Below are positions 16,401 through 43,733 of a stretch of DNA of 64,000 nucleotides, piece after piece. The position numbers and the translations under genes were made by a program. The DNA comes from Fulvivirga marina (lineage in GTDB: Bacteria; Bacteroidota; Bacteroidia; Cytophagales; Cyclobacteriaceae). The stretch's first letter is position 1; each line of letters starts with the position of its first letter. Where the stretch lies: positions 1 through 64,000 of the forward strand of contig NZ_JAEUGD010000053.1 of assembly GCF_016775155.1 (NCBI RefSeq). The letters run 5' to 3'. A model generated the notes under the pieces. The model was not told the origin of the DNA, did no database searches, and saw nothing but the letters and a program-made list of their open reading frames with translations.

Positions 16401-17945
16401 AAATGCGGGTAACTTGGGGACTACATCTTGCCAAAATTCAATAGCATTACCCTGATGATTGGCATAGGCGTTGAGTAATTGATTATGGCTCTCCGTTTGG
16501 TTAGGTAATGCCAGGTTGAGGAATTCTCTTGCGGGTACCTGGTTTTCTGAAGGAGGACGATCCAAAGCGAACTCTGTAGCCACTTTTTCTAAAGCAGTTA
16601 AGAATATTTCCAGCGTTTCTTCTTTATATTCTTTAATGATTTGCTCTTTCATGGCCTTACTCAACGCTTGTTTTAGATGGATTCGGGGTGTCTTAGCCAG
16701 GTTAAACCAGGTAAGTGTAACCTGCTTGCGACCCAGGGCATACATAAATCCTTGAAAGAGCGAGTCGTTCTGACTTTCTGCGAGTAAGCTGGCTCCGGTA
16801 GCCAGAATGGTAACATAGGCTACCGGCCATTCAATCTCTTCTGCCACTAGCTTCAACTGTTCTTCAGAGGCAGCTATATCGGAAAGCTTTAGTTTAGCCT
16901 CTTCAACGAAGCTTTTTGCGGCAGGGTAAATTTGATCATATTCGGAGAGCGTTTGGTCTGGCTCACTCAGGGCAATGTTAAGGTTGTTGATTTTATTTTC
17001 TGAGGAATATTCGCGCTTGAAGGCTAGTCTCGATCGACCCACAATCTCATTTTTCCGGATGGCAAAGGCGACTACATCGGCCTTTCCACGCTCGTTTGCT
17101 TTGAACGCTTCAGAAGAAAAACTGACTTCATATTCTCCATTATCATCAATCGAACTCGTTCCCAAAAATTCAATGCCTTGAGTGCCCTTCAGTTCCTTTA
17201 CCGTCTGTACAGACTTATAATGAGCAGCTCCCAACAGATCAATGTCATAAACATGGACCGTAACTTCAGATTTGCTGCTATTTTCTAAATTCAAGACATG
17301 CCCTGAAACCGTGAATTCTTCGATTTCATCCTTTTCTTTCAAGGCTACCTCATAAGTATGTTTTCCCGGAGGTACATTATTGTACGCTTCACCTTCTTCC
17401 AGTCCATCATAGAATAGGGTATCCTCATCATATATCCGGAAATATAGTTGGGGGCTTTCACCATTATTATTTAGATCTTCCCGGGTAAACTGAAAGGTAG
17501 CAATCCCTTTTTCTGAGATTTTATTGGCTTGTATTGGGTAAGTATTTTGACCTACAACATTCCGGCATTCAGCTCTTAGCAACTTAAAATCCAGTGAAAA
17601 TTCGCTTTTTACCTGTAAGCCAATCGTAAATACTTCTTTGGGTTTTGCCTCTCGGCTTACTGGAATTTTAATGGAGACGAAACGATTGGAGCTTTTTAAC
17701 GGATGGACATAGCGATTGGGTAATATTTTTCCTTTGTTGTCCTTAACCTCAAAGGTAGCTTTAGTGCCGTTGGGTATAAATTCATCATGAAATGAAAGCT
17801 TGAAAAAACCATCATTACCCACCTTGGCGGATTGTTTTGGGACTTTCTTTCCTAACTGCGTTACAAGCAATGTCACGGTTACGTTTTTAATGATTTTTTG
17901 GGATTTTTGGTCAATTACTTGGCCTTTGAGCTTGAAGGTTGCCAT
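7413..17945 (-). CDS. TcA-like subunit of a Tc (ABC) toxin, with PA14 and neuraminidase-like regions
   Basis: 3510 aa, larger than the roughly 2400-2500 aa of Photorhabdus TcA proteins. In Tc toxins TcA forms the pentameric cell-binding and translocation pore onto which the TcB-TcC cocoon docks. Visible regions: two transthyretin/carboxypeptidase-regulatory-like beta domains at the N-terminus (about 1-100 and 205-310); a VRP1/SpvA-type segment with CECKHCRSVLSPAAYLVDLM (about 780-810); a PA14-like beta domain (about 1610-1725, containing WKGWIRVP); the neuraminidase-like region (about 2100-2200, with WKGRLFLFWP); long alpha-helical stretches of the pore module (about 2870-3150); and a C-terminal TcB-binding-like region (from about 3210). 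It starts at ATG 17945, 200 bp after the TcB-TcC gene, in one leftward unit. No signal peptide is seen, as usual for TcA. The N-terminal TTR-like domains and the PA14 insert are additions to the classic TcA plan. Confidence 0.92.
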   Translation of the reverse strand: MATFKLKGQVIDQKSQKIIKNVTVTLLVTQLGKKVPKQSAKVGNDGFFKLSFHDEFIPNGTKATFEVKDNKGKILPNRYVHPLKSSNRFVSIKIPVSREAKPKEVFTIGLQVKSEFSLDFKLLRAECRNVVGQNTYPIQANKISEKGIATFQFTREDLNNNGESPQLYFRIYDEDTLFYDGLEEGEAYNNVPPGKHTYEVALKEKDEIEEFTVSGHVLNLENSSKSEVTVHVYDIDLLGAAHYKSVQTVKELKGTQGIEFLGTSSIDDNGEYEVSFSSEAFKANERGKADVVAFAIRKNEIVGRSRLAFKREYSSENKINNLNIALSEPDQTLSEYDQIYPAAKSFVEEAKLKLSDIAASEEQLKLVAEEIEWPVAYVTILATGASLLAESQNDSLFQGFMYALGRKQVTLTWFNLAKTPRIHLKQALSKAMKEQIIKEYKEETLEIFLTALEKVATEFALDRPPSENQVPAREFLNLALPNQTESHNQLLNAYANHQGNAIEFWQDVVPKLPAFENNPEAVSQLRLTNELSLLSENNFTLVKKLQKDQGITHPREIIYRPEELKAAVESTEIPPHIPGKNKKEKQANYLSRITHALQASYPTDTVAHNIQKGTFPSNGMQENLSAFFDEAIPNGFDLRKSRVEDYEDLFRKVDPDRVTELKEETNKLKRLLQLCPDPQSMAVLLERNIGNAKQIASIPKDIFLQEYGKKLETKQALIIHGRAKNIVLQNELHLINFHEISNHYSPALIGGAIKKTGGSTEDESVREAIEEVLPDWRNLIGPVDFCECKHCRSVLSPAAYLVDLMHSYLNMEGSKVNSSNETPLDVLLKRRPDLAHLHLTCENTNTIIPYIDLANEVMEFYVAHDELNAETAKNIDDISTEELQATPQFTISEAYRKLAKSIYPLSLPYHQPLDTIRIYLNHLKSSRCELINTLNPEIHSESGVINKTIECLGLNPISYHIIAGNEIQLEEGGESIPLQNFYGYNTETSDWKDSLIYVPELLKRTNLDYKDVLTLLDTHYINPKATAFNYLNKLLLHSDLPEKDLYDKLNEIAAGTLDPTTDPDLQEVIPESVLSGFQPWVSENFPGIKNVITLHAPDSDEEGNPISECSLENTRLRSLQDIYEAENIKIPDSPFSKLHRFVRLYPKLGWSITELDLVLKELHADDINAGVLEQIHHIQQVKHKLNVPITSLITLWGNIESRGEKALYGKLFLNKALQEIDSIYLPDPLGRFLDEKPVESSLPEEESPSLLITDHKPSLLAAFSLEDSELSQILQTEELDEEDSILTIPNLSRIYRHVVLARALKLSIEEIAVLLAIIRSDSSLADRFTPFSLWHEPTGEFGEQNPAQTLAFIELVDNIKKAGASISELQYLILNLEQEDQKLSVDVGQIQKALLGIRSSFISIEEQHTFLDPVDEETLREKLGLIYEPDIIDQIIDLAKGNLNFRTTASSGLDITIPDTAADIKEKTTYLRDSGQLVFRGMMTAAERDYLRSIDGGVIADATNALYQQPRQFIKDILYGIFPNDTLQNEAYESLRDRPLEGEQENNRTNFKYIHSYLLPIIKTTLQSDSLLASLSKLTSLDEVRLNELAGGELNYWAEKLSQFGLKATYLHSGTTSTQIDPTIDFHWDSDIPDEISWKGWIRVPNNEKFTFIIDVEQDAETFTLWLNDTALASRSASDNTKIEVTSSDLKAGELYPIHLSYQSNGIESGGINLSWKSSSIPKELIHAQFLFSEHESFGEAVDGWNKARIISDRFALSAIEINYIKNNNLDFAGLDFFNPTIDSWISLHNYSYLKNRLITDTNSLVEFFAQAQLPESTVDELYAKLANMFTGKSEHFRAMAEHLSYSPSDLITPSHLKQIHEAVQLIRKLGISASTAISWCPVEDDITHWDENFNQLNEVALSIKNTVKSKYKEQTWLQVAPAISDVLRENQKQALIQYLLVHPTLRLWDNGRIQDANGLFEYFLLDVQMDACMDTSRIKQAISSVQLFINRCFLNLESHQDEDGRETGVSPDYLSGPEWKWMKNYRVWEANRKVLLYAENWALPELRLNKSAAYKAAESFLAKNDITPDNVETAFRNYLFDLAEVAKLDICGYYEDNDENIAHIFGRTSSTPYKYYYQRYKIDTETWSPWEPVDINIQGVEDHENGGENSGIHLLPVVWKGRLFLFWPIFEETQIKKDNNRSIYNASRTNIENLEPDIFWKIKLVYSEYKNGLWSASHELSPAMKVSEEDLDTSLFKKFFKPEDFLFKVEKNGESLQIKKFSNRYNRSYKTIDLFERLIEALLNSPTIREIHKENLRKELETLNSHSSELNRLVLGEFEINSIYENPTVLLNDREEHHYANFLNSYNKIKEVEEEFYLDNSKILEDVKSSFHTLFSSDVLLKPESIGYSQTNKKSFFYQDTAHAYYVTPHNYFVNLDESIDPEYARPIIPFLEHHNGFDINNIRENNRSIATEARLDTMTLNGNNAGRLANGKARKNGITTKVAGAFAQTHKKSSPWINITSLQFHTFYHPFADEFLATMNRKGIQELLALDLEIESDDGHEFKSHHNPTNSVRKSKFLPEEKIDFDATGAYSLYNWELFFHLPLHIAGQLSKNSKYAEAMKWFHYIFNPTTDEATTSPEYPAERYWKCKPFKKELENIREYLNSIGKKNTLLDEWRNNPFRPHLIAQMLPNKYKKLTVMKYLDNTIAWADSLFRQDTIESINEATQLYIIASHILGPKPQEIPARGTIRPETYHSLKNRLDGFSNAEVILEHTFPYSGDISVPSVDDSPGSLLGASATKYFGIPSNDKLLEYWEVIEDRLFKIRHCMNIEGIERQLALFQPPIDPALLVQATAQGLSLGSILGDLNAPLPHYRFQYIFNKAIEQCQECRSLGGTLLSAIEKRDSEDIAQIRATHEVTMLNEIKLVREQQLGEAKLAKESLLKNRETLVSNFVYYQTLLGIEEPQEPEIGEAITELEVDVDVSLADSDTTGVKLIPKELQELTKANDANNLRLTASVIKNSANLAHLIPNASVNVEPFGIGATITYGGSNLGTALTSMAERFDIMASHLSFESSQASRMASHIRREQEWTHQANQLIKEISRLDSDITAADIRIHIAENELSNHENQISRAKEVEEYLKNKFTNVELYAWMKDQLFSVYKQFYQLSYELAKKAEKLYRLELGESASNFIRFGYWESNKEGLMAGEQLHLALRQMERSFMDKNKRQLEMTKHISIRQLTPQALLDLKATGSATINLPEWLFDLDTPGQYMRRIKSIAVSIPCISGPYTSINCSLTLQSSSVRISSIVGDNYGRQPEDSRFVDYSGEVQSIVTSSGQNDSGMFEVNLNDQRFLPFEKAGVISSWRLDLPSEIRQFNYDTISDVILHIRYTAKQGGTKLSDGSTKFIKDEVINKIGTFTRLFSLKHDFPNEWHQFSIGDSNNFTAKFSRNRLDYLSQQMAIAEISIQIVEMQQGDLILLGTIKAGNLSDLTNSLNSDAQEGILTIDLSELDGHENVYMLFSYRLNGALSHED

Positions 17946-18145
17946 GGTATTTGATGGTTATAGGTTAGAAGAAATAGTTTGCTTGTAGTTTCTATTGTTT
18001 ATTAAAGGTTTTGTATGAGTCACGATTTAATTTGAATGGAATATTTGGCTTTCATGATTTTTCTGTTTTAAGTCTTTTTTAAAGAGGCACAAATGAGCCC
18101 TTGAATCAGCTTGGCTTTTAAATATTCCAGCTTTCATTCAAATTT

Positions 18146-21100
18146 TCATTCTCTATGAAATCCAATCAATGAATCTAAGGCTTCGCTTTCTGCAACTATC
18201 GTAGTACCGTGAACTCGTCGAATATCTGTACCAGAACTCACAGTTTCATTCTCAGGAACTCCAGGTAACTCGTTTATGCTTAAACCACTATTTAGGTGTT
18301 GGCGAAGCAATCTTCTTGAACTTTCTGAAGCGCCAAAGAATGATGCAGTCCAAAACCGTCTAGCTTCAGTAGATATGTCATCTTCGATCTCAAGATTTAA
18401 TTCCTCTGAAATTCTTCTATAATTGCTCATAAATGCAGTATGTGCTAATGTTAACTTAGCTGCGACTACTTCTAATATTCTGTCTGTGGGTAAAAGAGCT
18501 GGAAAAATAAATTCGCCCGCTTCATTTAATGTACCAATTACCCGTCCACCTCTTCTTGTTGTCGCTGCGTTTAGACTTGGAAAATCATTAGGTAGTAACC
18601 CTTGTCTTCTTAATCTCCCCATTCTACGACTCCTACTCATTTCACCAAATCTTTCGGCACGATCATGATTTTCTTCACCTTCTTGCTCAGCAAATCCTTC
18701 GCTTAATTCATTTAAATATCGTCTAAACAGTGGTATTTGCCTTCTAGTCGCAATGTCAAAAAACAAATTATCCAAGCCACCACCATAAAAACTATTAACT
18801 CTACCATTGGCGAAAATATTTGCACCAAACTCCCTATGAGCAATAGTTAAAATTAGTGAAGGATCATAAATTGAATTGGTCTCTCTTATGCGATTAAGTT
18901 GGGTAGCTACCCGGTTAGCATTTTCTATACTAGTTAGACTTGTTATTAATTCTTCATTTGGAACACGATCACCTCTTCTTGCCCCTACTCGCCTAGGTCT
19001 ATTTCGGTCGCGAATGAGCCAACCTCTTTCTGGATGATTTCGTAATGCCCCAAAATAAATAGAAGAAGATCTTGCTATGGGCATCATTCGGCCTGCTCTT
19101 TCTGAAAGTTGGAAACCATCAATTGGCTGTTCCCCATTCGGGTCGAAAATGTTAATTGAATTACCCCTAGAATATTCATATAAATTACCTCCCCCCTCAA
19201 CCCCAATCGGATCAGAACTACACCACCGCCCTAACCAGGGCAAATAGTACCTGGCAGTATGATAATTCAAGCCAGTTTCCTCATCACGCTCCATCCCGGT
19301 ATATCGGTAGCGTTTGGCTTTTGCTTCAATGGCGCTGTTTTTTGCTCGGTAGGCCGGAGTGCCATAGGGATGGTATTCCTCATAGGAAATGATTTGCCTT
19401 TCTTCGTTTAGTTCCAATCCAACCGAACCGAGGTGGTTGCTGTACTGGTAGCGAAACAAAGTACCTTCAGAAAGCCTTTCTGTTCCAGAAACTCGCACAT
19501 CTTCTACTATCAAAATTTTCTGGTCATCAGCAAAGAGGTGGTGGGTTTCAATTACCTCATCCCGAACTACACCGTTGCCTTGTCTTCGGTACACTTCCAT
19601 ACCTTCCAGGTAAATGCGTTCTTCTATGATTCCTCCATTCTTGCGGATGTGTTTTCGTGTTCGCTGTTTGCTTGCATCATACTGGTACCAGGCATCCCCA
19701 CCACCTCCAAGGTCGATATGCGAGATCATATCCCTGTAATCCCAATCGGGCAGGTAGGGAGCCGCTTCGTTTCCGAAGTTTAGCATGCTGCCATGGGGAT
19801 CATAACCATAGCTAATTCCTCCGGGGTCACTATTGGTATAGGTGCGATCGAGCCGGTTGCTATCTGAGGCGGTTTCATAGTGACGGGTCCATCCATTGCC
19901 TCTGGCTACATGTTGCATGAAATTGAAATTCCCCACTGCATCGTAGCTGTATATTTGAGTGTAATTCCGGATTTCATTGGGAGAGTTCAGATGAATTACC
20001 GGAGGCTCCTGGCGATTGGGCGCTTCATTATAGGTATTATTTTCACGTCCGGTAGCTTTGATCAGGCGATAGAGGCTATCGTAGGTATAACGGGACCGGG
20101 CCACTACCTCCTGGCTATCATGAAAAACAGTTTCATAGGCGTCATCATAAACTTCGGTGATATTGCCTACAGGGTCATAGGTGTAGTTAAGGTCCTGTAA
20201 AACCTGAAGATCTTTTAACCCAAAATGAGATGCCGGAAAATCGGTATAGCCACTGCCATGCGGTGAACGAGTGGTCCTTAATTTGATTAACCGAAAGGTT
20301 TTAGGGTCATAGCTATATTGGGTAACGGTATCATTCCCATAGTGAATACGTTGGCGCTGCCCCTTTTCATTATATTGTATATCACGGATAGCAGGTGTGT
20401 CGGTGCCGTTGAGTGATAATGTTTCACTTTGAAGAACACCACGCTCGTTGTAATGAGGTAAATAAATGCCTGTTCCAGTGTTTACACTATGCCAGTTGTG
20501 CATTTCTGCCATGCGGTTCAGGGCATCATACGTAGTGGTTTTAATAAAAATTTCTTCCTCCAACAGAGATTCCCGGGTAATGGTGTCGTCAGCCCAATCT
20601 GTAACTTCTGCTTGAGCATCCAGGAGTAATCTGCGCCAGGCAATCAACAGGTTTCCTTTAAAATCCAGCCGCTCATTTTGAACTAGCCCACTGGAATCAA
20701 ATTGCTGGTATACCTGTCCCCGAAGGTTGCGGTTGATAGCATCGGTTAACCCTTCTCCATAGATCGTGCGCGCTATGGTATGGTCTAAACCGCTATCCCC
20801 CCCGGTAATATGTGTGCTAATGGGGCGCTGTAATTCACCATAAGTATGCCTTAGCATATGCCCTTTCTCATCCCAGGATATAATGGGGTTTCCGGCTACA
20901 TTATTGAGCATCCATCGCCTTCCGGCATCCATGCTTTCCTGAAATACCCTGTGTCCAAGCATATCATATTGCCAGCACATGACTGGGTTATCCCGGGCAT
21001 CTATTACTTTCCGGGTGTTGCCTTCAATATCCAAATCAATATATGTGCTATATAATTCCTCAAAATCAGAGGTTGTGCCTGCATCGTTGTTTTGCCACTT

Positions 21101-24100
21101 ATTATGTTCTATACTGAGTATAGGGCGACCCAGGGTATCCAGAAAGACCCGGTTGGGGGAGTTATTATGTATAACTGATTTTTCGGCTGCTTCCCTTGCC
21201 GCTGATCCTAACCCACCAGAAACTCTGTCGGTATACCAGGTACTTTGCAGGATATTGTCGTTTTGATCAAATGTGCGCTGCTGCCAGGTATCAAACTCTA
21301 CAGCAGTAAATGTTCCATTCGGCAACTCGGTATAGACATTACGTCCCAGGGCGTCATAATGGATTACAGGTGTTACTTCCCCTTCTACCAACTCTTTTGC
21401 ATCCTCGTAAAATGGATTTACTGAAAAATAGGGTTCGTACTGTTTTACCGGATTTCCTTTATTGTTTAGAATAGTGCGGCCATTACCAATCCAGCGCAGT
21501 TGATTAGAATCTGAAGTATCAATCGTTTCCAATCTGTAATCGCAATCCGGTTGAATTTGTAACTGAAGCGCTTCACCCGGTTCAGCCTGTGCTTTGGTCA
21601 TCACCACATTGCCCATGCCATCTGTGTATTCGAAGCTTAGTTGCAAATTACTCAACTCGCCAGCTGCCAATACAGCAACATGTTTTTCCCGCATAATACT
21701 TCCCACTGTGGTAGGTATGAGTTTGGGAATAGTGCATGGTGCAGCTTCCGCATCATGAAGATCACGGTTTTCCATGGATGACTGATAGCGCTTAAAATCA
21801 TAGACAAAGCGAGCGGTGGCATTCTGTAGAAACTCGCGGGCCTGTCTTCTTAAATCCTCGGTAGTTTCAAATACAAAATAATCTCGAATACTTTCTTCAT
21901 TCGCTTCGGTAGTAATTTCGCTTATTCCATGCAAATTATCGGCTTCATCTCCTTTGCCCATTACGGCCATGGCCTTAACCAGGCCCAGTTCATCCACGAA
22001 TACCTCTGACAGGTTGTGGTTGATATCCCGCATGAAGGTGGGGGAGAGGGTGCGAAAATTAAAGCGTTGAACCTCCGTCTGGTTATCCAGTGCATCAGTA
22101 GTGCTATCCGTCATCATGAAATAATCACGGTAGTAAGTTACCCAGGTCTCCGAACCAAAGGGATCAAGATAAGACTGTGGGGTAAAGAAACGATGTTCGA
22201 TATCTCTAATTGACTCAGTGCGCTCATCAAGATAAAAGCGGGTTACCCCCGATCGTATCCACCAGTTGTTATCATCCCGATGTACAAAGCGGCATTGGCT
22301 ATATTGATTATCTCCATCTGTATCATTGTCGCTAAGCAGGTTTTCCAACTCAGAAGGGTCGGAGGGGAGCTTGTCGCCAAAGATTGTATCCAGTAACTCG
22401 GGAGTGTAGGCGAGTTGATAGCCTTGGTAGGGGATACCGTGTTGCCCATGCTCATAAAGTCCTAATTCAGTGGTCAGGTCATCATTGTAATAAGTAGTTT
22501 GGATATGTTCGATCAACCTTCTTTGTAATCCGGAAGAGGACTCTTCATGGTAAGCGATCTCATTGTCGGGGTCCATTACACCGTCAAACTCTCCAATTTG
22601 AAACAAGGTATCTGAAGGTTGCAGTCCGGTAATTTCAAAGGTCTGATTTTCAGCCGGAAGTCGAAGAAGATACAGATCTGAATCTATCAGATCCTCCGTA
22701 AATTTATTACAAGTAAAAGTGATTAGTGTCTTCTGCTGCTCTGCATCCAATTCATCCAGATGGGCAAGGCATGCGTCTTGTTCCTCCGGGCGGGCATAAT
22801 CCAGATTACGAACTTCTTCCTGAATGGCATTGATCGCACTTGCTCTGGCTGCATTTTGTCTGGGATATACCACGGATGCCGTTTTCAGGATATTTCCCAG
22901 GTCATCGAATTCAATATTCAGGGTATGGGCAATACGAGGATCCTTTTCATTACGCTCATAATGTATGCTCAATGCCTCGCTTTCCGTAGGCATAAAAACG
23001 GCATAGCGATTAGCTGCACGAGGTTGCAGGAGCTGGATATTACAAGTATGGGTGGCTATGGTATAAGGTTTTGCCTGAAGTTGAAGGGAGTCCGTATCCG
23101 CTTCCTTTCCATCAAGCGCAAATACTTCCTGTCGGAGTGTCATTCCCTTGCAGGCTCGCAACGCTTCCCGCCATTCCTCGGTACGGAGGTTTTCAATATC
23201 AAAATCCAATCCCTCAACACTGACTACCCTGGCAACAGGCAGAACGGGTTCGTTGACGGTAAGCATTGCCTCAGGAAAAGTATTGTTATAAACCTCATAC
23301 CAATACTCTTTTTCGAATTGGGTGAGAATACGCTCACGATCCAAAAATGCTCCGGTATGGAACCAGGTTTTGGTGAGCACCGGAGGTTGGTATAACTCCT
23401 CTGATTTTTCTAAGCGTGTATCCGAATTGGCTTTATTCCAGGTATCATAAAACTCAGTATCCTGTTGCTCTACCATACCAAATCCCCGGAACTCTCGTTC
23501 GGCATGGTCATAATAACCATGATGGTAGCGGTATTGGGAGGCAAACCGAACCTGGGTAATTTTGTCTTCAACTATGTTGCGGGCAATGACCTGGACGGGA
23601 AAAGGCAGTTTTGTAATCCAGGGCAGTCCTTCTGCCTTGTCTTTCAAATAGTAATAAGTCGAGCTTTTGTATTCCAGAGCGGTTTCCTTTCCCATATTAT
23701 TGCGATACCCCACCATGACATGAGGCTTTTTGCTATCCATCAGGTCAATGTATCGCATGGGAGTCTGCCTGTCGGCTGGTAAATCAGAAGACCAGACCAG
23801 GCAAGAGGTGCCAGTTCCCAAAAGGTCAGTTACAGTGACCTGTGCATTCCGATTGATAGGAAAGAAAGGGTTGATTTTATGGGCATCACTCCATCCATTA
23901 CCGGAGAGGTTGATATAAGCGTTAAATGTATTTTGCCCCAGGTAAATGATGTCGGCAGCACCCGTTCCGCTAATATCAGCCAGTTGAATGTATTGTGTGT
24001 TGAACTGGTCAGGGTAGTCAAAAACGGGGGCATTGGCCATCGTGATTTTCGCGCTAAAATTACCGTACCCTTTGTTGGCCCAGTAACAAATCTCACCATT

Positions 24101-26056
24101 GCGCACCCGCACAATATCGGTTAGGCCATCTCCGGTAAAATCTGCCAAATATACCGCCTCACTTTGATCACTATCGGCAAAAATCAAAGCAGGTCCTCGT
24201 TCTTCATCGTAGGGTTTAGGGCTGCGCTCTGCCGCTTTATGCCCCAATTTTCCGTTAGCAGCATGCCAGGTGAATACATTTTCTTCCGTCATGACCAGGT
24301 CAGGTTGTCCATCACCAGTGAGATCCAGCATTCGTGTATTGGGGTCCCGAAGATCAATACTGGCAGTTTCTGTAAAAGCCTGAAAAGGTTCCCAATCATT
24401 ACCTTCGGTGAGTTCGAAGAAACCCTGCAAGCCTGGGCGGTTCACTACAACCTGTTTTTTCCCATTCGCTTCCAGGTCTTGTAAGCTGAGTGCTCCGTTG
24501 GCCAGTCCGGTCAGCGATGGTTTGGGAATGACCGGTTTGGCTTCGGCCAAGGTTACCCGCCCATCTTCATCGATATCTCCCAGGTTGCTTTTGTAAAACC
24601 AGCCTTCTCCCTGTTCGGTCAGGATACCGGAAATTCCTTCTGCATAAAAGTCGGTGAATTGGTAGTTGTTGGTGAGGCCTACAGGTGTATGAACCAGGTT
24701 TTGCTGACTGACATTTCTGACTTCAGTGTTCCATTGAAGTTGTTGGTAATCAAATTCTAAGGGAGGTAAAGCTTTGCGAGAATAGCCGATGGGAGTACTT
24801 TCCTCATCATAAAGCCGTATATAACCGGCCTGTGTGATTGAAATTAAATAATTGACTTCAGTCTGTCCGGAATCATTAATAGAAGAGCCTTTGTGGTCCA
24901 GTTCGAGGGTACGAACAAGGTAATTCCGCCCAAAAGGATGACTGATTTGATCTCCATTTTCTTCATATCCCTGCATGTCAGTCTCATCTTCAAAATGATG
25001 AAACATCATGATTCTCCTGCAAAGCCGTTGGGTTCTGATTTCAAAACCAGCGCGAAAGGAAGAAAACGGATCATCACGGTAGTCCCACACATCGTTCTCT
25101 ATATGCGGCTCAATTTCATGGGTATGCTCTCCATAATCCAGGACCAACTCAAAGAGGTATTCACTATCGCCAGGATCTGATAGATCATAAGGCTGGGTTG
25201 GGTCCGGATAATACGCTTGCCTATTTCCATAGGCTACACGCTTGAGATACGAATTGGTAAAGGGGGCTAACCCTGATTTTCTATTTCTTTCATGTACATG
25301 GTTAGGGATACTGGAATCTTCATGGATGGAGCCGTCATCATCAATGTTATAATCCCTTTTATAATAATAGCGGATCCAGTTGCCTTTATTGTCAAAACTA
25401 AATTCGGGAAGCCATTGATAGATCCGGGTAACGTCTTCAGGATCAGCAATACGAGAATGGGTGCTTCTGCCAAAAAAAGTCACTATATTCTCTTTAGTGG
25501 TCACTTTCCAGTAAGTATCATGATCAGGGTGGGTGATCTTTTCAATTCGTGCAAACCCACCCTCGACTCGTGGCCGATACCGTTTAACCTGATAGTCCCC
25601 CGATGCAAATTCAACAGGTTCCCAGTCTCCTGCAGTTTGCTTTTGCAGATAGGGTACCAAGTCTTCAGCACCGGAGAACATGAAGATATCTTCCTCATTA
25701 CCTTCTCTATACCTTGGAAGCTGCTTGTCTGATTTTCTAATGATGGAAGGATATTGCAGAGACCACCCGAGACCAAAAGGGCTGTTGCCTGAGCCTGAGT
25801 TGTAGCCAAGAGCTAGTGATGGCGTAAATCCATTTCTCCCAGGGGTTAGTGGGAGTGGAATGGAAAAGGAAGCAGTGCCATTGGCGGCGTTCACCTCAAA
25901 TTTTTCGTCTATTCCTTTTAAAGCTCCACCACCTTTAGGTAGTGATACAGAGGGAATATCAATTGCGTTAGATTCGGTAGCCCGTTCCTGGGTAAGGGTG
26001 TCTAGCTGATTTTTGGGCTTCTTTTGAGTTGTGTTTTCAGCATCTTTTGTATTCAT
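18146..26056 (-). CDS. fused TcB-TcC (SpvB/RHS) toxin cocoon with unrecognised C-terminal effector domain
   Basis: 2636 aa. The N-terminus has the SpvB signature (SLPKGGGALKGIDEKFEVN, then GYNSGSGNSPFGLGWSL). Residues about 480-800 are the TcB propeller with FG-GAP/VCBS-type repeats (DIDEDG, DLTGDGQPD, DFTGDGLTD). The TcdB-middle region ends at YYDHAEREFRGFG. YD repeats follow, and the RHS core closes with WCSSDPIGVEGGGNLYEY and IFDPNG (D2305), the aspartyl-protease self-cleavage region of TcC-type proteins. The last 328 residues (bases 18146-19132) are the cargo. They are Arg-rich, match no toxin family I know, and contain YDPSLILTIAHREFGAN (E2409), which looks like the catalytic-helix pattern of lysozyme-like transglycosylases. 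TcB and TcC are separate genes in many species; here they are one protein encoded upstream of TcA. The effector's activity is unknown. Confidence 0.9.
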   Translation of the reverse strand: MNTKDAENTTQKKPKNQLDTLTQERATESNAIDIPSVSLPKGGGALKGIDEKFEVNAANGTASFSIPLPLTPGRNGFTPSLALGYNSGSGNSPFGLGWSLQYPSIIRKSDKQLPRYREGNEEDIFMFSGAEDLVPYLQKQTAGDWEPVEFASGDYQVKRYRPRVEGGFARIEKITHPDHDTYWKVTTKENIVTFFGRSTHSRIADPEDVTRIYQWLPEFSFDNKGNWIRYYYKRDYNIDDDGSIHEDSSIPNHVHERNRKSGLAPFTNSYLKRVAYGNRQAYYPDPTQPYDLSDPGDSEYLFELVLDYGEHTHEIEPHIENDVWDYRDDPFSSFRAGFEIRTQRLCRRIMMFHHFEDETDMQGYEENGDQISHPFGRNYLVRTLELDHKGSSINDSGQTEVNYLISITQAGYIRLYDEESTPIGYSRKALPPLEFDYQQLQWNTEVRNVSQQNLVHTPVGLTNNYQFTDFYAEGISGILTEQGEGWFYKSNLGDIDEDGRVTLAEAKPVIPKPSLTGLANGALSLQDLEANGKKQVVVNRPGLQGFFELTEGNDWEPFQAFTETASIDLRDPNTRMLDLTGDGQPDLVMTEENVFTWHAANGKLGHKAAERSPKPYDEERGPALIFADSDQSEAVYLADFTGDGLTDIVRVRNGEICYWANKGYGNFSAKITMANAPVFDYPDQFNTQYIQLADISGTGAADIIYLGQNTFNAYINLSGNGWSDAHKINPFFPINRNAQVTVTDLLGTGTSCLVWSSDLPADRQTPMRYIDLMDSKKPHVMVGYRNNMGKETALEYKSSTYYYLKDKAEGLPWITKLPFPVQVIARNIVEDKITQVRFASQYRYHHGYYDHAEREFRGFGMVEQQDTEFYDTWNKANSDTRLEKSEELYQPPVLTKTWFHTGAFLDRERILTQFEKEYWYEVYNNTFPEAMLTVNEPVLPVARVVSVEGLDFDIENLRTEEWREALRACKGMTLRQEVFALDGKEADTDSLQLQAKPYTIATHTCNIQLLQPRAANRYAVFMPTESEALSIHYERNEKDPRIAHTLNIEFDDLGNILKTASVVYPRQNAARASAINAIQEEVRNLDYARPEEQDACLAHLDELDAEQQKTLITFTCNKFTEDLIDSDLYLLRLPAENQTFEITGLQPSDTLFQIGEFDGVMDPDNEIAYHEESSSGLQRRLIEHIQTTYYNDDLTTELGLYEHGQHGIPYQGYQLAYTPELLDTIFGDKLPSDPSELENLLSDNDTDGDNQYSQCRFVHRDDNNWWIRSGVTRFYLDERTESIRDIEHRFFTPQSYLDPFGSETWVTYYRDYFMMTDSTTDALDNQTEVQRFNFRTLSPTFMRDINHNLSEVFVDELGLVKAMAVMGKGDEADNLHGISEITTEANEESIRDYFVFETTEDLRRQAREFLQNATARFVYDFKRYQSSMENRDLHDAEAAPCTIPKLIPTTVGSIMREKHVAVLAAGELSNLQLSFEYTDGMGNVVMTKAQAEPGEALQLQIQPDCDYRLETIDTSDSNQLRWIGNGRTILNNKGNPVKQYEPYFSVNPFYEDAKELVEGEVTPVIHYDALGRNVYTELPNGTFTAVEFDTWQQRTFDQNDNILQSTWYTDRVSGGLGSAAREAAEKSVIHNNSPNRVFLDTLGRPILSIEHNKWQNNDAGTTSDFEELYSTYIDLDIEGNTRKVIDARDNPVMCWQYDMLGHRVFQESMDAGRRWMLNNVAGNPIISWDEKGHMLRHTYGELQRPISTHITGGDSGLDHTIARTIYGEGLTDAINRNLRGQVYQQFDSSGLVQNERLDFKGNLLIAWRRLLLDAQAEVTDWADDTITRESLLEEEIFIKTTTYDALNRMAEMHNWHSVNTGTGIYLPHYNERGVLQSETLSLNGTDTPAIRDIQYNEKGQRQRIHYGNDTVTQYSYDPKTFRLIKLRTTRSPHGSGYTDFPASHFGLKDLQVLQDLNYTYDPVGNITEVYDDAYETVFHDSQEVVARSRYTYDSLYRLIKATGRENNTYNEAPNRQEPPVIHLNSPNEIRNYTQIYSYDAVGNFNFMQHVARGNGWTRHYETASDSNRLDRTYTNSDPGGISYGYDPHGSMLNFGNEAAPYLPDWDYRDMISHIDLGGGGDAWYQYDASKQRTRKHIRKNGGIIEERIYLEGMEVYRRQGNGVVRDEVIETHHLFADDQKILIVEDVRVSGTERLSEGTLFRYQYSNHLGSVGLELNEERQIISYEEYHPYGTPAYRAKNSAIEAKAKRYRYTGMERDEETGLNYHTARYYLPWLGRWCSSDPIGVEGGGNLYEYSRGNSINIFDPNGEQPIDGFQLSERAGRMMPIARSSSIYFGALRNHPERGWLIRDRNRPRRVGARRGDRVPNEELITSLTSIENANRVATQLNRIRETNSIYDPSLILTIAHREFGANIFANGRVNSFYGGGLDNLFFDIATRRQIPLFRRYLNELSEGFAEQEGEENHDRAERFGEMSRSRRMGRLRRQGLLPNDFPSLNAATTRRGGRVIGTLNEAGEFIFPALLPTDRILEVVAAKLTLAHTAFMSNYRRISEELNLEIEDDISTEARRFWTASFFGASESSRRLLRQHLNSGLSINELPGVPENETVSSGTDIRRVHGTTIVAESEALDSLIGFHRE

Positions 26057-26706: not shown

Positions 26707-27291
26707 ATGGAAAAAAATGACATTAGAATAGTTGATAATTTTTTTGCAGACCCTTTATGGATTCGTGAAAATGTTTTACACTCAAAGTTTTCGCCAAATA
26801 CTAACTCTGAGTTTTCGTCAAAAAAATTAGGCTTATCAATAGCATTTAAAAATCAATTTCGCAGGCAGGTATCCACATACATTGACAATGTTCAGTCGTA
26901 TAATTTTATTGATAGCGAATTTTGTTACTATACTTTAGAAGACGAGCATATAAATAAAAAAAATGGACATTGGATACACTCTGACAGATGTCGGCATATT
27001 GGAATTGTGTTTCTTACTCCGAACATTGATTCTAGTCTTGGTGGATTGAGCTTCTACCAGCACATTGCTTCAGGGGCAACATCTTGGTATGATGTGGAAA
27101 ATGATCCTGCTAATCAAAATTTGATTTATTCCGACTCGGTAGACTTAACAAAATGGCATGAATACTTCTATGTAGAGTGGAAATTCAATCGACTTGTGAT
27201 ATTCAACTCGTATTATTTCCATCAAGCAAGAGCCTATTTCGGAAACAATATTTTCAATAGTAGAATTACCCTAAATATTTTCTTCAACTAA
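26707..27291 (+). CDS. 2OG-Fe(II) oxygenase-like protein (DUF6445-like), putative peptide hydroxylase
   Basis: 194 aa. The fold signature of Fe(II)/2-oxoglutarate dioxygenases is visible: an HxD pair (H91-S-D93 in GHWIHSDRCRHIGIVFLTP), a GGLSFYQH strand pair (about 112-119), a distal His (H172 in YYFHQAR) and an Arg (R186 in NSRITLNIFF) positioned to bind 2-oxoglutarate. The HSD, GGxSFYxH and FHxA spacing resembles DUF6445-type proteins and prolyl/asparaginyl hydroxylase relatives. It is the first gene of a tight rightward trio, 12 bp before the small repeat-bearing peptide gene and followed by a cobalamin-type radical SAM enzyme. I infer that it hydroxylates the peptide; substrate and residue are unknown. 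No signal peptide, so it should act in the cytoplasm. Confidence 0.7.
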   Translation: MEKNDIRIVDNFFADPLWIRENVLHSKFSPNTNSEFSSKKLGLSIAFKNQFRRQVSTYIDNVQSYNFIDSEFCYYTLEDEHINKKNGHWIHSDRCRHIGIVFLTPNIDSSLGGLSFYQHIASGATSWYDVENDPANQNLIYSDSVDLTKWHEYFYVEWKFNRLVIFNSYYFHQARAYFGNNIFNSRITLNIFFN

Positions 27292-27303
27292 AACAAAAAT
27301 AAA

Positions 27304-27564
27304 ATGGCAAAAAAAGTAACCAGTGGTGAAAACAAAGAGAACCCAATCACCAGTGAATCAGTTCAGACCCAATACGCAATGGAGGAACATTCTAATCCAA
27401 TAACGAATGAAAATGTTCAAACTCAGTACGCTCGCATTATGGATAACACAAGCGACCTAAAAGGTGTAGTCTTAGAAGTTGACCAAATGGTTAAAGATGT
27501 TTTTCCAAATGCTTCCGAAGAATCCAGGATTACCTTGATAACTAAACTCATGGATAAAATATAG
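27304..27564 (+). CDS. small peptide with duplicated motif, candidate RiPP precursor
   Basis: 86 aa. Residues 13-25 (NPITSESVQTQYA) and 31-43 (NPITNENVQTQYA) are a tandem duplication with an 18-residue period, differing only by two Ser-to-Asn changes. At DNA level seven of the 13 codons differ synonymously, so the peptide, not merely the DNA, is conserved between copies. Residues 44-86 look helical (LKGVVLEVDQMVKDVF and SRITLITKLMDKI) and could be a recognition or follower segment; the first 12 residues are Lys/Glu-rich. The gene sits between an oxygenase-like gene and a RiPP-type radical SAM gene with gaps of 12 and 7 bp. I read the repeats as the modified cores. No GG-type cleavage site, signal peptide or Cys is present. 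An alternative is a small accessory or recognition protein. Function is inference from context. Confidence 0.7.
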   Translation: MAKKVTSGENKENPITSESVQTQYAMEEHSNPITNENVQTQYARIMDNTSDLKGVVLEVDQMVKDVFPNASEESRITLITKLMDKI

Positions 27565-27571
27565 TTGTGAA

Positions 27572-29335
27572 ATGAAAAAAACCAATGTCGCTTTGATAGC
27601 AAGTATGCCTTGGCCCACGTACAACATGCCCTCAATTCAGGTTGGAGTATTAAAGTCATTCATTGAAAGAGATGGGCACAAATGCATTGGAGCGCATTGG
27701 TTTTTAGATATTTACAAATACCTGGGACATGATTTATATACATCCATAAGTTCTGAGTACTTAATTGTTGGGGAAGCAATATATTCAAGCTTATATTTTG
27801 AAGAGCACAGAGAAGAGATTGTTAAATCAAACCCTCTATTGCAGAAGACCCTTTCTTCTGATCCAACCTTTTTAGAAAAACTAGATCAAAAACATGATGA
27901 AATTCTATTGAGATATAATTGGAATGAAATTGATCTAGTTGGCTTTACACTAAATTTTTCCCAAACAATGCCATCCATTTATATGGCTGCTAAAATCAAA
28001 AGGTTAAACCCTAAAATCAAGATCATTATTGGCGGAGCTGAAGGGACTTCAGAAATGGGTGCTTCTCTAATAGATCAATTTGACTGTATCGATTTTGCCT
28101 GCAATGGAGAAGGAGAGCAGCTATTACTGGAATTAGTTAAATCTGACCTCGTTGACTTAACAAACATTAAGAAAATAAATAGTTTAATTTATCGTGAAAA
28201 CGGTAAAACTTACACTAACCCTTCCTCTCAATTAGATTCATTGAGAAACTTACCTGTTCCTAATCTCGATGAGTATTTTACTGGACTGGCCCTTAATAAC
28301 TTAAATCCATATGATTTATCTGTTGTACTGCCAATAGAATCTTCTAGAGGCTGTTATTATTCATGTAGTTTTTGCTCACTAAATATACAGTGGGATGGTA
28401 CTCGATTTCAATACCCTGAAACCGTAAAAAATAACATCAGTGAGCTTGTCGCCAAATACAAGATTCTTGACTTTTTCTTTGTAGACAACATTACGCCAAT
28501 AAACAGTAAAGAAATATTCAGTGAAGTTCAATCCTTAAACTTTGATATAAGATTTTTTTATGAGATGAGAGCGAACATATCGTACGACTCACTTAAGGCT
28601 ATGCATAAGGCTGGTTTAAAACGGGTGCAAATCGGAACTGAAGCAATGTCTTCATCACTGCTTCGTAAATTCAATAAAAAGAGTTTGACTATTCACAATA
28701 TTCAGGGTCTTAAAAATTGTGAAGAGTTAGGCATTATAGTCTCATCGAATTTCATAATAAATCATCCTAGTACTGATCAAAATGATATAAATGAAACTAT
28801 CAAAAATATTAGTTACTGTTATCACTTGCGTCCACCAAGCGCTTTTTCAGAATTTGGTTTAATGTTTGGATCACCAGATTACAATAGTCCTAAGGATACT
28901 TTTTCTATTAAGGGAAACCATAAAGATTATCGCAAGATATACCCTCGGAAACAATTCGACGCTTTGAATCTTCCAGTCAAAGAATATATAACAAAATCAA
29001 AACCGCCAGACTGGTCATCTATTAAACAGATCGTAGAACACTGGAAAAAAACCTACAATAATAAAACCACCCACCTGCTCTCAATGCAAGACGGAGGTAC
29101 ATTCCTAAAGATTGAAGATCGAAGATATGGCCCTGTTGATGTTTTCATTTTGGATAAAACAGAAAGAGATTTGTATCTCCTCATTAGTCAAATAACGCCC
29201 TTCGCAAAAATTAAAAATAAATACCCAGACAAAAATGAAAATGAGCTAAGAACTTGTTTACAAGGTCTAATAGATCTCAAATTAGTTTTTGAGGAAGATG
29301 ACAAATTCTTAAGTCTTGCAATTAGGTCTGATTAG
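27572..29335 (+). CDS. cobalamin-binding radical SAM protein, RiPP-maturation C-methyltransferase type
   Basis: 587 aa. The N-terminus (ALIASMPWPTYNMPSIQVGV, then LGHDLYTSISSEY and GEAIY) matches the opening I know from the RiPP maturation radical SAM protein 1 family (TIGR03975). Residues about 120-210 form a cobalamin-binding-like Rossmann segment (DLVGFTLNFSQTMPSIYMAA, then IIIGGAEGT). The radical SAM cluster motif CxxxCxxC is C261/C265/C268 in SRGCYYSCSFCSLN, with the downstream barrel to about 450 (RVQIGTEAMSSSLLRKFNK). A C-terminal region follows with a winged-helix-like end (KNKYPDKNENELRTCLQGLI). Family knowledge: these enzymes use SAM and methylcobalamin to methylate unactivated carbons in peptides. 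It ends the operon, 7 bp after the peptide gene, and faces the lectin-protein gene convergently with a 13-bp gap. The specific reaction here is unknown. Confidence 0.85.
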   Translation: MKKTNVALIASMPWPTYNMPSIQVGVLKSFIERDGHKCIGAHWFLDIYKYLGHDLYTSISSEYLIVGEAIYSSLYFEEHREEIVKSNPLLQKTLSSDPTFLEKLDQKHDEILLRYNWNEIDLVGFTLNFSQTMPSIYMAAKIKRLNPKIKIIIGGAEGTSEMGASLIDQFDCIDFACNGEGEQLLLELVKSDLVDLTNIKKINSLIYRENGKTYTNPSSQLDSLRNLPVPNLDEYFTGLALNNLNPYDLSVVLPIESSRGCYYSCSFCSLNIQWDGTRFQYPETVKNNISELVAKYKILDFFFVDNITPINSKEIFSEVQSLNFDIRFFYEMRANISYDSLKAMHKAGLKRVQIGTEAMSSSLLRKFNKKSLTIHNIQGLKNCEELGIIVSSNFIINHPSTDQNDINETIKNISYCYHLRPPSAFSEFGLMFGSPDYNSPKDTFSIKGNHKDYRKIYPRKQFDALNLPVKEYITKSKPPDWSSIKQIVEHWKKTYNNKTTHLLSMQDGGTFLKIEDRRYGPVDVFILDKTERDLYLLISQITPFAKIKNKYPDKNENELRTCLQGLIDLKLVFEEDDKFLSLAIRSD

Positions 29336-29348
29336 GGAAAAGTGCAAC

Positions 29349-31313
29349 CTATATTTCTTTCATTTCTTCTGTGGTGATAATCCCTAAACCAATCATGTAA
29401 TTTCTGAAGGTTCCATGGAACCCAATGATATGACTATTCCCATGAGCTCTTAGCTTATGATGAAAGCCTTCATATTCATTCAAATACTCATCATAGTGTT
29501 CCCCAACTTTAATTGTAGGCTTTTTGCCTACTACTTTTCCTTTTTCATCTAGTTTTACAATTTCAAAACCTAAATACCTAATTGCAGAATGTCCCTTGTA
29601 CTTTTTCGGGTTTCCAAATTGAACTGACTTTAAGATTTCTCCTTTTTCAAAATTGATGGTAGTTTTGTGCTTGCTTTTCTTCCCTCCATGTAATGAACCA
29701 GTGATTACTTCATTATCTAGTTGATATTCAATTTGTATATTTGTAATCACCTCTTTGCCATAAACATGTATTCTTTTAATACTTGCTTGTTGCAAGAGTT
29801 CTTTTCTTTCTCCCTTCAGTTTCTTGCGATCCTCTGTAAACCAGACATCTTTATCTTGTGGAAACCTATCATTAAAATAGTACCCTAGTTCATCACCTCT
29901 TACGGAAGATTCTCTCAACACATACGGTTCGTGCTTTGGAGTGGAAAAAAGACCGTTATTAATGATCTCAACAAGTCCTTTATGAGCATTCAGGATTGGC
30001 TCATATTCAACAATATGAAACCAATATTTTGCCTGAGAATAACAATAGATTCTCCAATTATTTACCTCTTCAAATCCATGTTTTTTTACCGGGTCAGTGT
30101 TTATGTGATAGAAGTATACATAATCACCATTTCCATCGTAAATACTTTTATCAATGGCTGTAGCATACCTGCTATGGGAGATTGGCCCATCCTTTCTTAA
30201 TTCAACACCAAACCTCCAGTCAAACTCAGAACCATTAAGACCCTTATAAAATCCAAAATCTATCTTACAGTCCCTGGTACCCATCTTTGACTTTTGCTTA
30301 AAGATCATTTCCGAACCTGAATAGCTATACCCAAATTTGGAAGCTTCGCTATTTTCGTCTGCGCCAGAATAATCAAATTCTCTACCATCCGCATCATATT
30401 TTGGTAAACTCTTCTTATACAAGTGTGTATGAATCATACTCCTTAGAATACCTTCAAGCTCTTCAAGGTTTCCTTTAATGGTGCTGTACTCATCTAATGA
30501 TGTAATCCTTCTAAGGTTTCTATCTGAATACCAATCATCTTCTTTAACATTATTATCTATACATTTTTTTATCCAAAATGCTCGGATAAAAGCCTTTCCG
30601 TGGATCACAAACTGAGATACTCCCGTCAAAAAAGTTCCAATTGCGGTAACGCCAGTAAACGCTGCCAATTGTTTTAGAGACGCAAATAAATTGGTCCTTA
30701 ACTGCTCTAGTTTATTTTCGAGATTTTGCCATTCAAATTCATTTAAACAAACTGCGTGATGACTATTCCAAAATGCTTTTTTTATAGCTCTGGAGTAATC
30801 ATTTACCTCACCTATTGGAGCAAGGTGATAATCTTTTATTGCCTGAGTATGCTTCCAGGTGTCTTTAATATTTTGATTATCATTTTGAGCATCAATCAAT
30901 TTAGATATTGCATCAAATAACATCGAAAACGGATTTTCTTCCTCACCACCAAACACCCAGTTTCGAAGAACGCCATCCATAGCTGCCAAAGAGGTAGCTC
31001 CGATCACATCCTTCTTCTTACCTAAACCCCAAACTGCTGTTTGGAGAATGGGCATCATAAAATCATAAACTTGCCTTAAATCATCTTTCTGATTGGAACT
31101 TCTATGCCTATACCGATCATACTTCCAGTTTGGAACATAATAGTTCATAATGAAATCTTCATAACTCCAATTCCATCTTTTTTCATCCCTATATCTTGGC
31201 CTATTGAAGGTAAAATTGAATGTAGCACTATATTTGTCATAGATATCATCTATTTTATCTGTAAATAGATAACTTAACTTTTCATCGATTAGCTTACCAG
31301 TTTTATGTCCCAT
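29349..31313 (-). CDS. protein with C-terminal jacalin-like lectin domain, candidate toxin subunit
   Basis: 654 aa, no signal peptide. Residues about 60-200 are mostly helical and aromatic-rich. About 205-245 includes a hydrophobic helix pair (LFASLKQLAAFTGVTAIGTF and onward) that could insert into membranes. The middle is beta-rich with many Tyr/Trp. From about 505 the sequence follows the jacalin-like lectin pattern: ITNIQIEYQLDNEVI, GSLHGGKKS, GEILKSVQFG, IRYLGFEIV and finally GNSHIIGFHGTFRNYMIGLG. Such domains bind carbohydrates. The partner gene ends one base upstream, so the two are co-transcribed. Helical N-terminus, hydrophobic hairpin and sugar-binding tail are consistent with a pore-forming or receptor-binding toxin next to the Tc operon, but I do not recognise the N-terminal family. 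Confidence 0.6.
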   Translation of the reverse strand: MGHKTGKLIDEKLSYLFTDKIDDIYDKYSATFNFTFNRPRYRDEKRWNWSYEDFIMNYYVPNWKYDRYRHRSSNQKDDLRQVYDFMMPILQTAVWGLGKKKDVIGATSLAAMDGVLRNWVFGGEEENPFSMLFDAISKLIDAQNDNQNIKDTWKHTQAIKDYHLAPIGEVNDYSRAIKKAFWNSHHAVCLNEFEWQNLENKLEQLRTNLFASLKQLAAFTGVTAIGTFLTGVSQFVIHGKAFIRAFWIKKCIDNNVKEDDWYSDRNLRRITSLDEYSTIKGNLEELEGILRSMIHTHLYKKSLPKYDADGREFDYSGADENSEASKFGYSYSGSEMIFKQKSKMGTRDCKIDFGFYKGLNGSEFDWRFGVELRKDGPISHSRYATAIDKSIYDGNGDYVYFYHINTDPVKKHGFEEVNNWRIYCYSQAKYWFHIVEYEPILNAHKGLVEIINNGLFSTPKHEPYVLRESSVRGDELGYYFNDRFPQDKDVWFTEDRKKLKGERKELLQQASIKRIHVYGKEVITNIQIEYQLDNEVITGSLHGGKKSKHKTTINFEKGEILKSVQFGNPKKYKGHSAIRYLGFEIVKLDEKGKVVGKKPTIKVGEHYDEYLNEYEGFHHKLRAHGNSHIIGFHGTFRNYMIGLGIITTEEMKEI

Positions 31314-31314
31314 C

Positions 31315-32340
31315 TCAGCTTACTGTATAATTTTTAAATAGATCCTTTAAATAATTAAAACTTAACCTTCTTCCCTCACTCCTTAAATCTAACAGGTAGT
31401 AGAGCACGTCCTTATAGTTTCTAATTCCTATCTTTTTAATGTCATGAGTGATTTTTTGGTATTGATCATCTGGTATATCTGGAGTAAAGTATTGAAGATC
31501 TAAATAGGCGGTAATCATCAATAGAATATCTACTTCCATTCTTTCTACTACAAAAGAAGAGGAATCAAAATACTCTTTAATCAATTTCACAAACTCAAAA
31601 TAAAGATCATCATCAATTTCGAGTTGAGGTTCTTCAGAGGACTTTTTATATGCCATTTTGTTGATTACCTCATGTTCTGTCAAGTAAGTAATGGCTGCGG
31701 AGATTGCTCCTACTATAGCATAGGCTACTGCTTTATTAATTTTTGTTTTTTCATTATTCTTTAGAAAAGTATCCTTGAATTTCCCCCAGTAAATATTAAA
31801 GTCTGATAATTGACTTCGATCATACAACCTTGTGTTTTTAAACAAATCTTGAATTTTTGTATACTGGTTTGTATTCAGGTTCTCATGATCTATTAATTCG
31901 CGGGATATTTTTAACAAACGAACGGTTTCTCTTACGTGAGACATTCTGCTTAAAAACGAAAACAACGTTTCAGGGTCTTTGCGTAAAATTTCGGCTCTCC
32001 TACTAAGAATATCCGGCCGATCGTCGGGGGCGGCCTCGTCTAATTCACGAAATATGGAAAATAGTTCATCTCTATAAGTTTTATCATAACTGTTGAGATC
32101 GATTTTTATGCTCTCTAACTCTGTAGAAACTCTATCGGAACATTCTTTTATTTCTGTAGATACGCCCTCAGGTATTGTACCTTCCCCAGCCTTTAGTACA
32201 GTCCATCTTTCAATATCCTTTTTCCATTCTAGGTGATCACTATAAAGTGATTCTAACATAGACCGTTCTTCTTTTACTTTTTCAGAGTGTCTTTCCATGG
32301 AGTCATTATGTTCCTCTCCAATATGTCTTGGCTCCTTCAT
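31315..32340 (-). CDS. helical protein of unknown function, partner of the jacalin-like-domain protein
   Basis: 341 aa, not recognised. The first ~115 residues are charged and coiled-coil-like (SEKVKEERSMLESLYSDHLE and onward). A single hydrophobic stretch (AVAYAIVGAISAAITYLT) lies near residues 205-222; the remainder is helical and ends RLSFNYLKDLFKNYTVS. It is translated first in the leftward pair, with only one base between its stop and the next ATG, so the two products are probably made in fixed proportion and may interact. Possible roles are the second component of a binary alpha-helical toxin (as in XaxAB/YaxAB architecture), a chaperone, or an immunity protein. None is supported by a motif. 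Confidence 0.55.
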   Translation of the reverse strand: MKEPRHIGEEHNDSMERHSEKVKEERSMLESLYSDHLEWKKDIERWTVLKAGEGTIPEGVSTEIKECSDRVSTELESIKIDLNSYDKTYRDELFSIFRELDEAAPDDRPDILSRRAEILRKDPETLFSFLSRMSHVRETVRLLKISRELIDHENLNTNQYTKIQDLFKNTRLYDRSQLSDFNIYWGKFKDTFLKNNEKTKINKAVAYAIVGAISAAITYLTEHEVINKMAYKKSSEEPQLEIDDDLYFEFVKLIKEYFDSSSFVVERMEVDILLMITAYLDLQYFTPDIPDDQYQKITHDIKKIGIRNYKDVLYYLLDLRSEGRRLSFNYLKDLFKNYTVS

Positions 32341-33051: not shown

Positions 33052-33138
33052 AGTATTATAATAGCTATATTGGATATAATATGAATATCACAATGCTGTG
33101 ATGTTCAGGTGTTGCCACTAACTAGAACAAACAATAAG

Positions 33139-35738: not shown

Positions 35739-35904
35739 TGACAATGAAAGTCCACATAATGATAGCTGAAGATCTTTAATTTTAAATGTTCCTAGCTAAG
35801 TAAAGCTTGCAGTACAGCATTGGTATACAACACCTTCCGATAATATATTACCCCATTTGTGTAACCTACATTCGTTTTATTGTTGTCTAATGGGCAAACT
35901 TAAA

Positions 35905-41922: not shown

Positions 41923-41934
41923 AACTTCAACCTT

Positions 41935-43446: not shown

Positions 43447-43466
43447 ATCAACTTTTAGTTCAAGAA

Positions 43467-43712
43467 TTAATGATCGTGATGAGTTGACCCGTCATCATGT
43501 GTATGAGTGCCTTCCTCAGTATTAGTGGAGTCATTTGTTACTGTAAACTCTTCTTGTTCTTGATGCTCGGCATGCTCATGAGAATGATCAGCATCATCAT
43601 GTGTGTGTGTCTCAGTGTCGTGTGAATGGCCATGTTCTGATTCTGACTTCTTCTCTGAACAGGCAATGGCGAAAACAAAAGTTAATGCGATAAGAATATT
43701 TGAAATTTTCAT
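43467..43712 (-). CDS. small His/Asp/Glu-rich lipoprotein, probable periplasmic metal binder
   Basis: 81 aa. The signal peptide ends FAIAC followed by SEKK (lipobox AIAC). Nearly all the mature part is HxH-type metal-binding sequence (HGHSHDTETHTHDDADHSHE) with an acidic linker and a terminal THHDH. Such small peptides sit in metal-efflux operons and are thought to buffer or pass Zn, Ni or Cu ions to the adaptor. It lies between the channel and adaptor genes with short gaps (21 bp each side), so it is co-transcribed with them. Confidence 0.85.
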   Translation of the reverse strand: MKISNILIALTFVFAIACSEKKSESEHGHSHDTETHTHDDADHSHEHAEHQEQEEFTVTNDSTNTEEGTHTHDDGSTHHDH

Positions 43713-43733
43713 AATAATTTGATTTTTAAGATT

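Follow-up and report, generated by a model that had tools for sequence, protein, structure and literature searches.

Cobalamin-dependent radical S-adenosylmethionine (B12-rSAM) enzymes and hydroxylases have been described together in pathways for ribosomally synthesized and post-translationally modified peptides (RiPPs). In the proteusin pathways of polytheonamide (PoyB/PoyC with PoyI) and pythonamide (EreB with EreI), one precursor is modified by a B12-rSAM C-methyltransferase and an Fe(II)/alpha-ketoglutarate hydroxylase, according to the part of PMC9505594 available to us. Likewise, biphenomycin clusters combine a B12-rSAM (PbsB/BipD) with a cupin-like or alpha-ketoglutarate hydroxylase (PbsQ/BipG) on one peptide, and the available portions of PMC12257519 and PMC12707348 state that RiPP B12-rSAM enzymes can also cross-link; the former cites clavusporin for a B12-rSAM with DUF5825. 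Here we describe a locus of Fulvivirga marina, located in the first 64 kb (hereafter the window) of a 290-kb contig from a 6.78-Mb genome, in which three consecutive genes encode an oxygenase-like protein of the DUF6445 family, an 86-residue candidate precursor peptide with two repeats and a cobalamin-type rSAM protein. We give about even chances to the reading that this trio is a compact RiPP-type operon, in which the rSAM methylates and the DUF6445 oxygenase hydroxylates the repeats of the peptide.

The trio has the same pairing of enzyme types as the polytheonamide and pythonamide pathways, the enzymes being likened by type only. The polytheonamide precursor, however, carries a nitrile-hydratase-like leader and is served by more enzymes, whereas the window locus has a peptide of no known leader family and two enzymes only. 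Biphenomycin differs in its cross-linking chemistry, and a Pfam scan of the window genes found no MNIO, arginase or TldD-type protease. A first-pass annotation, made from the letters of the window, knew of no characterised product from this gene set; this agrees with our literature search, but the enzyme pairing itself has precedents in PoyB/PoyC with PoyI and EreB with EreI (PMC9505594, as far as its available part goes). What is without a close match in the sequences searched is the combination of this enzyme set and this peptide.

As the first-pass annotation had placed them, the three genes lie on the plus strand at 26707-27291, 27304-27564 and 27572-29335, separated by 12 and 7 nt. The peptide gene (27304-27564) contains two 13-residue repeats, NPITSESVQTQYA (residues 13-25, 27340-27378) and NPITNENVQTQYA (residues 31-43, 27394-27432), which are offset by 18 residues, identical at 11 of 13 positions and share the consensus NPIT(S/N)E(S/N)VQTQYA. 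None of 20000 shuffles of the peptide reached an equally good repeat; the duplicated motif claimed earlier is confirmed. Between the two DNA copies, 11 of 39 bases are different, with third codon positions accounting for 8. With 11 random substitutions, 6.0 of 13 residues are expected to remain unchanged, and 11 or more do so with P = 3e-5, a value that is somewhat optimistic because the repeat was initially chosen for its protein identity. In the other forward frames the copies agree at 3/12 and 4/12 residues and in the reverse frames at 4, 6 and 9, the frame scoring 9 having a stop in both copies. Because the differences fall mostly at third codon positions, we take the repeat to reflect selection on the peptide sequence following an old duplication.

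This bias also bears on whether the small open reading frame (ORF) is a gene at all. If it were not, both enzymes would act on something else, which would be consistent with the lack of any peptide homologue in plasmids, phages, viral contigs and, its own gene aside, 395 genomes of the class. Against this, the silent-site bias is found in this frame and the ORF fills the space between the two enzyme genes, and we regard a non-coding ORF as very improbable. A short putative precursor gene next to a candidate modifying enzyme is, furthermore, the arrangement expected of a RiPP locus. The peptide matches no Pfam or NCBIfam model, its sole PHROG match has an E value of 0.08, and the second match in its own genome is at chance level (E 1.66). 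With only 12 residues ahead of the repeats and 43 after them (residues 44-86, 27433-27561), the recognition part is more likely to be C-terminal, a proposed follower segment. The position of the repeats at the N-terminal end is a difference from the relatives.

The third gene encodes a 587-residue protein (27572-29335) that matches TIGR03975 (rSAM_ocin_1) with 345.8 bits against a curated cut-off of 281.85. The match extends over positions 3-606 of the 606-position profile, that is, nearly the whole length, where the earlier claim had named the N-terminus. A B12-binding domain precedes the rSAM core, as in cobalamin-dependent rSAM enzymes, and the three cysteines listed by the first-pass annotation, C261, C265 and C268, are present. 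Enzymes of TIGR03975, for example those beside Nif11, pheganomycin-type or DUF5825 genes, carry the family name C-methyltransferase and have the B12-binding and rSAM folds and the C-terminal domain in common with the window protein.

The window rSAM is, however, a divergent member. Its relatives show 25-29% identity (maximum 29% among the best 80 of 238 found), and its cluster motif reads CX3CX2C, whereas CX7CX2C, an observed rather than official defining feature of the family, is found in the 92 other ORFs counted (those with RGC...C..C and a GGA triplet only, duplicate loci included). The only four counted ORFs with the three-residue spacing are all copies of the window gene. Similarly, the W-W-G that follows the first cysteine is near-invariant in 38 aligned rows, whereas the window protein has Y-Y-S. 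In a 45-row tree, a branch supported at 100/100 puts the protein on the TIGR03975 side, apart from two further rSAM proteins encoded in its genome; given an end branch of 3.67, its position within that side is tentative. A single match to an anti-phage library (PDC-M51A, 26.3 bits, E 7.6e-7, residues 111-333) we interpret as sequence common to B12-rSAM proteins.

PqqD is the type member of the RiPP recognition elements (RREs). Such elements hold precursor peptides and consist of three helices and a three-stranded sheet, as described in the available part of PMC11117315. Residues 503-581 of the window rSAM (29078-29314) are predicted with high confidence (DSSP on the model) to form a beta3-alpha3-beta2 winged helix, with a hairpin after its three strands and three helices. 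We found that the profile of this region from a 38-row alignment matches that of 30 PqqD-type domains, collected by PF05402 from 118 genomes, with an hhalign probability of 93.4%, and of 93.1% using the relatives only, with the window protein left out. Controls stayed at or below 1.3% for 11 other slices of the rSAM and at or below 1.2% for 60 column shuffles. The predicted sheet and helices together with this profile are consistent with a PqqD-like (RRE-like) domain. Because the predicted winged helix has a PqqD-like family profile, the rSAM probably binds the peptide itself.

Which reaction the rSAM would catalyse is less evident. Cross-linking is a real alternative: according to PMC12257519 and PMC12707348 (available parts), the B12-rSAM enzymes PbsB and BipD couple aromatic rings, with a mass change of -2 Da, and their clusters also encode a cupin-like or alpha-ketoglutarate hydroxylase. 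Here, the rSAM would form a C-C or other bond, for instance joining Y24 to Y42 or two residues of one repeat, while hydroxylation of a neighbouring residue would fall to the oxygenase, as in biphenomycin. The presence of one Tyr in each repeat fits such a link, and so does the PDB fold comparison (C-terminal domain not covered), whose best structural match is OxsB, a ring-contraction enzyme and not a methylase in the accessible text of the same two papers. On the other hand, the family name and score point to a C-methyltransferase, no aromatic pair is found inside a single repeat, and ApyD, another RiPP B12-rSAM, methylates Tyr to beta-methyltyrosine (PMC11117315, available part). On balance we consider cross-linking unlikely and retain methylation as the preferred chemistry.

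The first gene (26707-27291) encodes a 194-residue protein that matches PF20043 (DUF6445) with 42 bits (cut-off 24). The HxD...H motif claimed by the first-pass annotation is there as H91, D93 and H172, and it is joined by R186. All 43 aligned DUF6445-type rows, 42 of which come from IMG/VR, carry these four residues, although one relative outside that set, in another alignment of seven rows, lacks D93. The model (predicted local distance difference test 81.4) has PHD2 chains as its top fold matches (E 2.7e-5, template-modelling score about 0.5), followed at lower rank by bacterial 2-oxoglutarate (2OG) enzymes and a bacterial prolyl hydroxylase. The triad and the arginine in a modelled 2OG-oxygenase-like fold suggest an Fe(II)/2OG oxygenase. 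Together with the TIGR03975 rSAM and a repeat apparently under selection, this agrees with the RiPP-type operon that had been proposed.

Identity between the oxygenase and its DUF6445 relatives is about 23-33% over the aligned length. Relatives were found in 19 phage records and, with an alignment query, in at least 360 confirmed stretches of IMG/VR; viral contigs searched with the single oxygenase sequence gave none. Among plasmids one record matches (Piscinibacter, 23.7% identity, E 2e-4), and among 296 genomes of the phylum two do, the own genome included, the second having by eye no rSAM or obvious precursor alongside. DUF6445-type proteins also match PHROG 1644, labelled 'minor coat protein'. 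DUF6445-like proteins that keep the Fe/2OG site (42 of 80 loci aligned) are widespread in viral contigs, and this label looks questionable.

The possibility that the rSAM modifies the peptide while the oxygenase is merely co-transcribed and has another substrate draws on this phage association and on the rSAM neighbourhoods: a one-sequence phmmer check (E up to 1, loci of limited length) found no DUF6445 or peptide relative beside the rSAM in 95 loci, the window copies excepted. The oxygenase gene nevertheless lies only 12 nt from the peptide gene, its active site is intact, and a DUF6445 relative occurs in another apparent RiPP neighbourhood in Piscinibacter, and a separate substrate seems improbable to us. 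This Piscinibacter plasmid locus (L010), collected via the oxygenase query, was also matched in the 95-locus check. Its consecutive genes for DUF692, carbamoyltransferase, TfuA-like, DUF6445 and GNAT proteins (L010:2118-9204) are possibly another RiPP-type cluster using DUF6445.

Computation establishes the gene families, the active-site residues, the silent-site bias of the repeat and the PqqD-like profile for the C-terminus of the rSAM family. We infer that both enzymes act on the peptide; the chemistry (C-methylation and hydroxylation, as the first-pass annotation predicted), the sites, the order and the recognition segment are likewise proposals. The C-terminal PqqD-like domain of the rSAM would hold the peptide, the peptide's last 43 residues being the most likely contact, and the enzyme would use its 4Fe-4S cluster, SAM and cobalamin to methylate unactivated carbon atoms in both N-terminal repeats. 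Hydroxylation of residues in these repeats would be the task of the DUF6445 enzyme, with Fe(II) and 2-oxoglutarate. Any cleavage or export would depend on enzymes encoded elsewhere.

Alternatively, the peptide might remain in the cell as a modified protein or scaffold, with no secreted product. The trio has no adjoining protease or exporter gene, and 43 residues extend beyond the repeats. However, a protease and a transporter within the cluster are common in RiPP loci but not obligatory, many RiPP pathways use proteases and transporters encoded elsewhere in the genome, and candidates do occur farther off in the window: an RND/HlyD/outer-membrane efflux set (38818-44918), a trypsin-like protein (47038-51363) and a subtilase (58037-60445), all 9.5 kb or more downstream of the trio. 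We consider an intracellular end product somewhat unlikely.

A number of observations weigh against a methylating and hydroxylating operon. No second copy of the trio was found in the sequences searched. The rSAM was limited to its own gene among 291 genomes of the order (1/291 at 1e-40) and 395 of the class (1/395 at 1e-25), and the peptide likewise among the class genomes (1/395). Within the rSAM itself, PF02310 (B12-binding) scores slightly below cut-off (30.4 vs 32.1), Pfam PqqD is absent from five C-terminal pieces of rSAM proteins, and the PqqD match of the window protein alone is not significant (2.2%). Phages account for many of the DUF6445 relatives, as genes with no assigned role. 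Furthermore, the Pfam scan of the window genes found no protease or exporter gene adjoining the trio, the nearest candidates being at least 6.5 kb away, beginning with a beta-lactamase-family protein at 35857.

The neighbourhoods of the rSAM relatives count on the same side. The first-pass annotation had named rSAM homologues lacking a peptide gene beside them as evidence against its proposal, and this was found in part: a candidate small ORF is absent at 13 of 27 inspected rSAM relatives by a filter that can fail where a GC-rich genome contains long spurious ORFs, and a repeat-bearing small ORF lies within 400 nt of 3 of 78, one of them merely Gly-rich. This comparison discriminates poorly, however, because other TIGR03975-type relatives adjoin annotated Nif11 or pheganomycin-type precursors.

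Since the family profile gives 93% and the single protein 2.2%, the PqqD likeness is supported at the family level and reaches the window protein via the alignment and the predicted fold; the same five C-terminal pieces gave three weak Pfam matches, all below cut-offs, and a PDB sequence search with the window piece two matches (E 0.69 and 1.5). The missing second trio does not prove absence: apart from the genus search, the genome samples represent parts of larger groups, and few patterns were used in both scans of the whole genome collection. The single-sequence rSAM scan yielded no relative among 32 pattern matches; the alignment-based scan ran on one pattern and gave 238 relatives, of which we retained the best 80. 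The genus search found the rSAM in 2 of 15 genomes at 1e-20, the second being a 29% partial match (residues 150-414), and TIGR03975 at 1e-60 was found in 4 of 395 genomes of the phylum, the own genome included. In plasmids, tblastn matched 71 records, all below 60% identity (22.9-25.8% in the 30 listed); phages gave three partial matches and viral contigs none.

We tentatively suggest, as a possibility short of even chances, that the locus represents a new RiPP class, in which a strongly diverged B12-rSAM with the canonical CX3CX2C motif and a built-in recognition domain is combined with a DUF6445 oxygenase, tandem N-terminal cores and a C-terminal follower, DUF6445 being a new RiPP hydroxylase family perhaps drawn from a phage-type gene pool. 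If the reading as a RiPP operon is right, the trio would be a minimal two-enzyme system, for methylation or cross-linking plus hydroxylation, acting on a repeated core. It would also give a DUF6445 protein its first function, judging by the literature search; that search, which most subscription papers lay beyond, found no paper naming DUF6445 and one containing TIGR03975. Finally, it would offer a divergent B12-rSAM lineage in which to study the role of the CX7CX2C insert of the relatives.

Small ORFs of other kinds were seen beside rSAM relatives. In a Pyrinomonadaceae metagenome-assembled genome, a 55-residue ORF with three KGILVGDN-like units lies directly upstream of a TIGR03975-type rSAM (L018:5694-5861) and is a candidate repeat-core precursor. 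In two Nitrospirota genomes, a similar small protein (PFAA..VPFDEFLASGK) follows the rSAM gene (L017:2282-2611 and L071:7974-8324) and is a possible partner or substrate of the enzyme.

The trio is flanked on both sides by minus-strand genes, a Tc-type toxin gene upstream (18146-26056) and a gene with a jacalin-like domain downstream (29349-31313). No Rfam match was found, and promoter and terminator scans gave signals no stronger than the spread of shuffles. The GC content of the trio (33-37%, against 40.5% for the window) could suggest horizontal transfer, which we do not claim because the region at 33-36 kb has 35-38%. The downstream neighbour gene at 33109 is present in 3 of 11 genus genomes, the own genome included.

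Elsewhere in the window, Pfam identifies Tc-type toxin complex genes at 7413-26056 (minus strand) and 169-5550 (plus strand), with a TcA C-terminal TcB-binding domain (393 bits) and SpvB (321 bits) accompanied by TcdB middle domains. These stretches also encode an RHS/TcdB-like protein that terminates in a cell-wall hydrolase domain. The minus-strand region 29349-32340 encodes a 654-residue protein whose C-terminus is a jacalin-like lectin domain (36 bits, cut-off 22) and, as its neighbour, a 341-residue protein with no Pfam family above cut-off. In the efflux set, the RND transporter, HlyD-type and outer-membrane efflux genes are consecutive on the minus strand with His-rich small proteins close by, and by its look this is a metal-efflux set.
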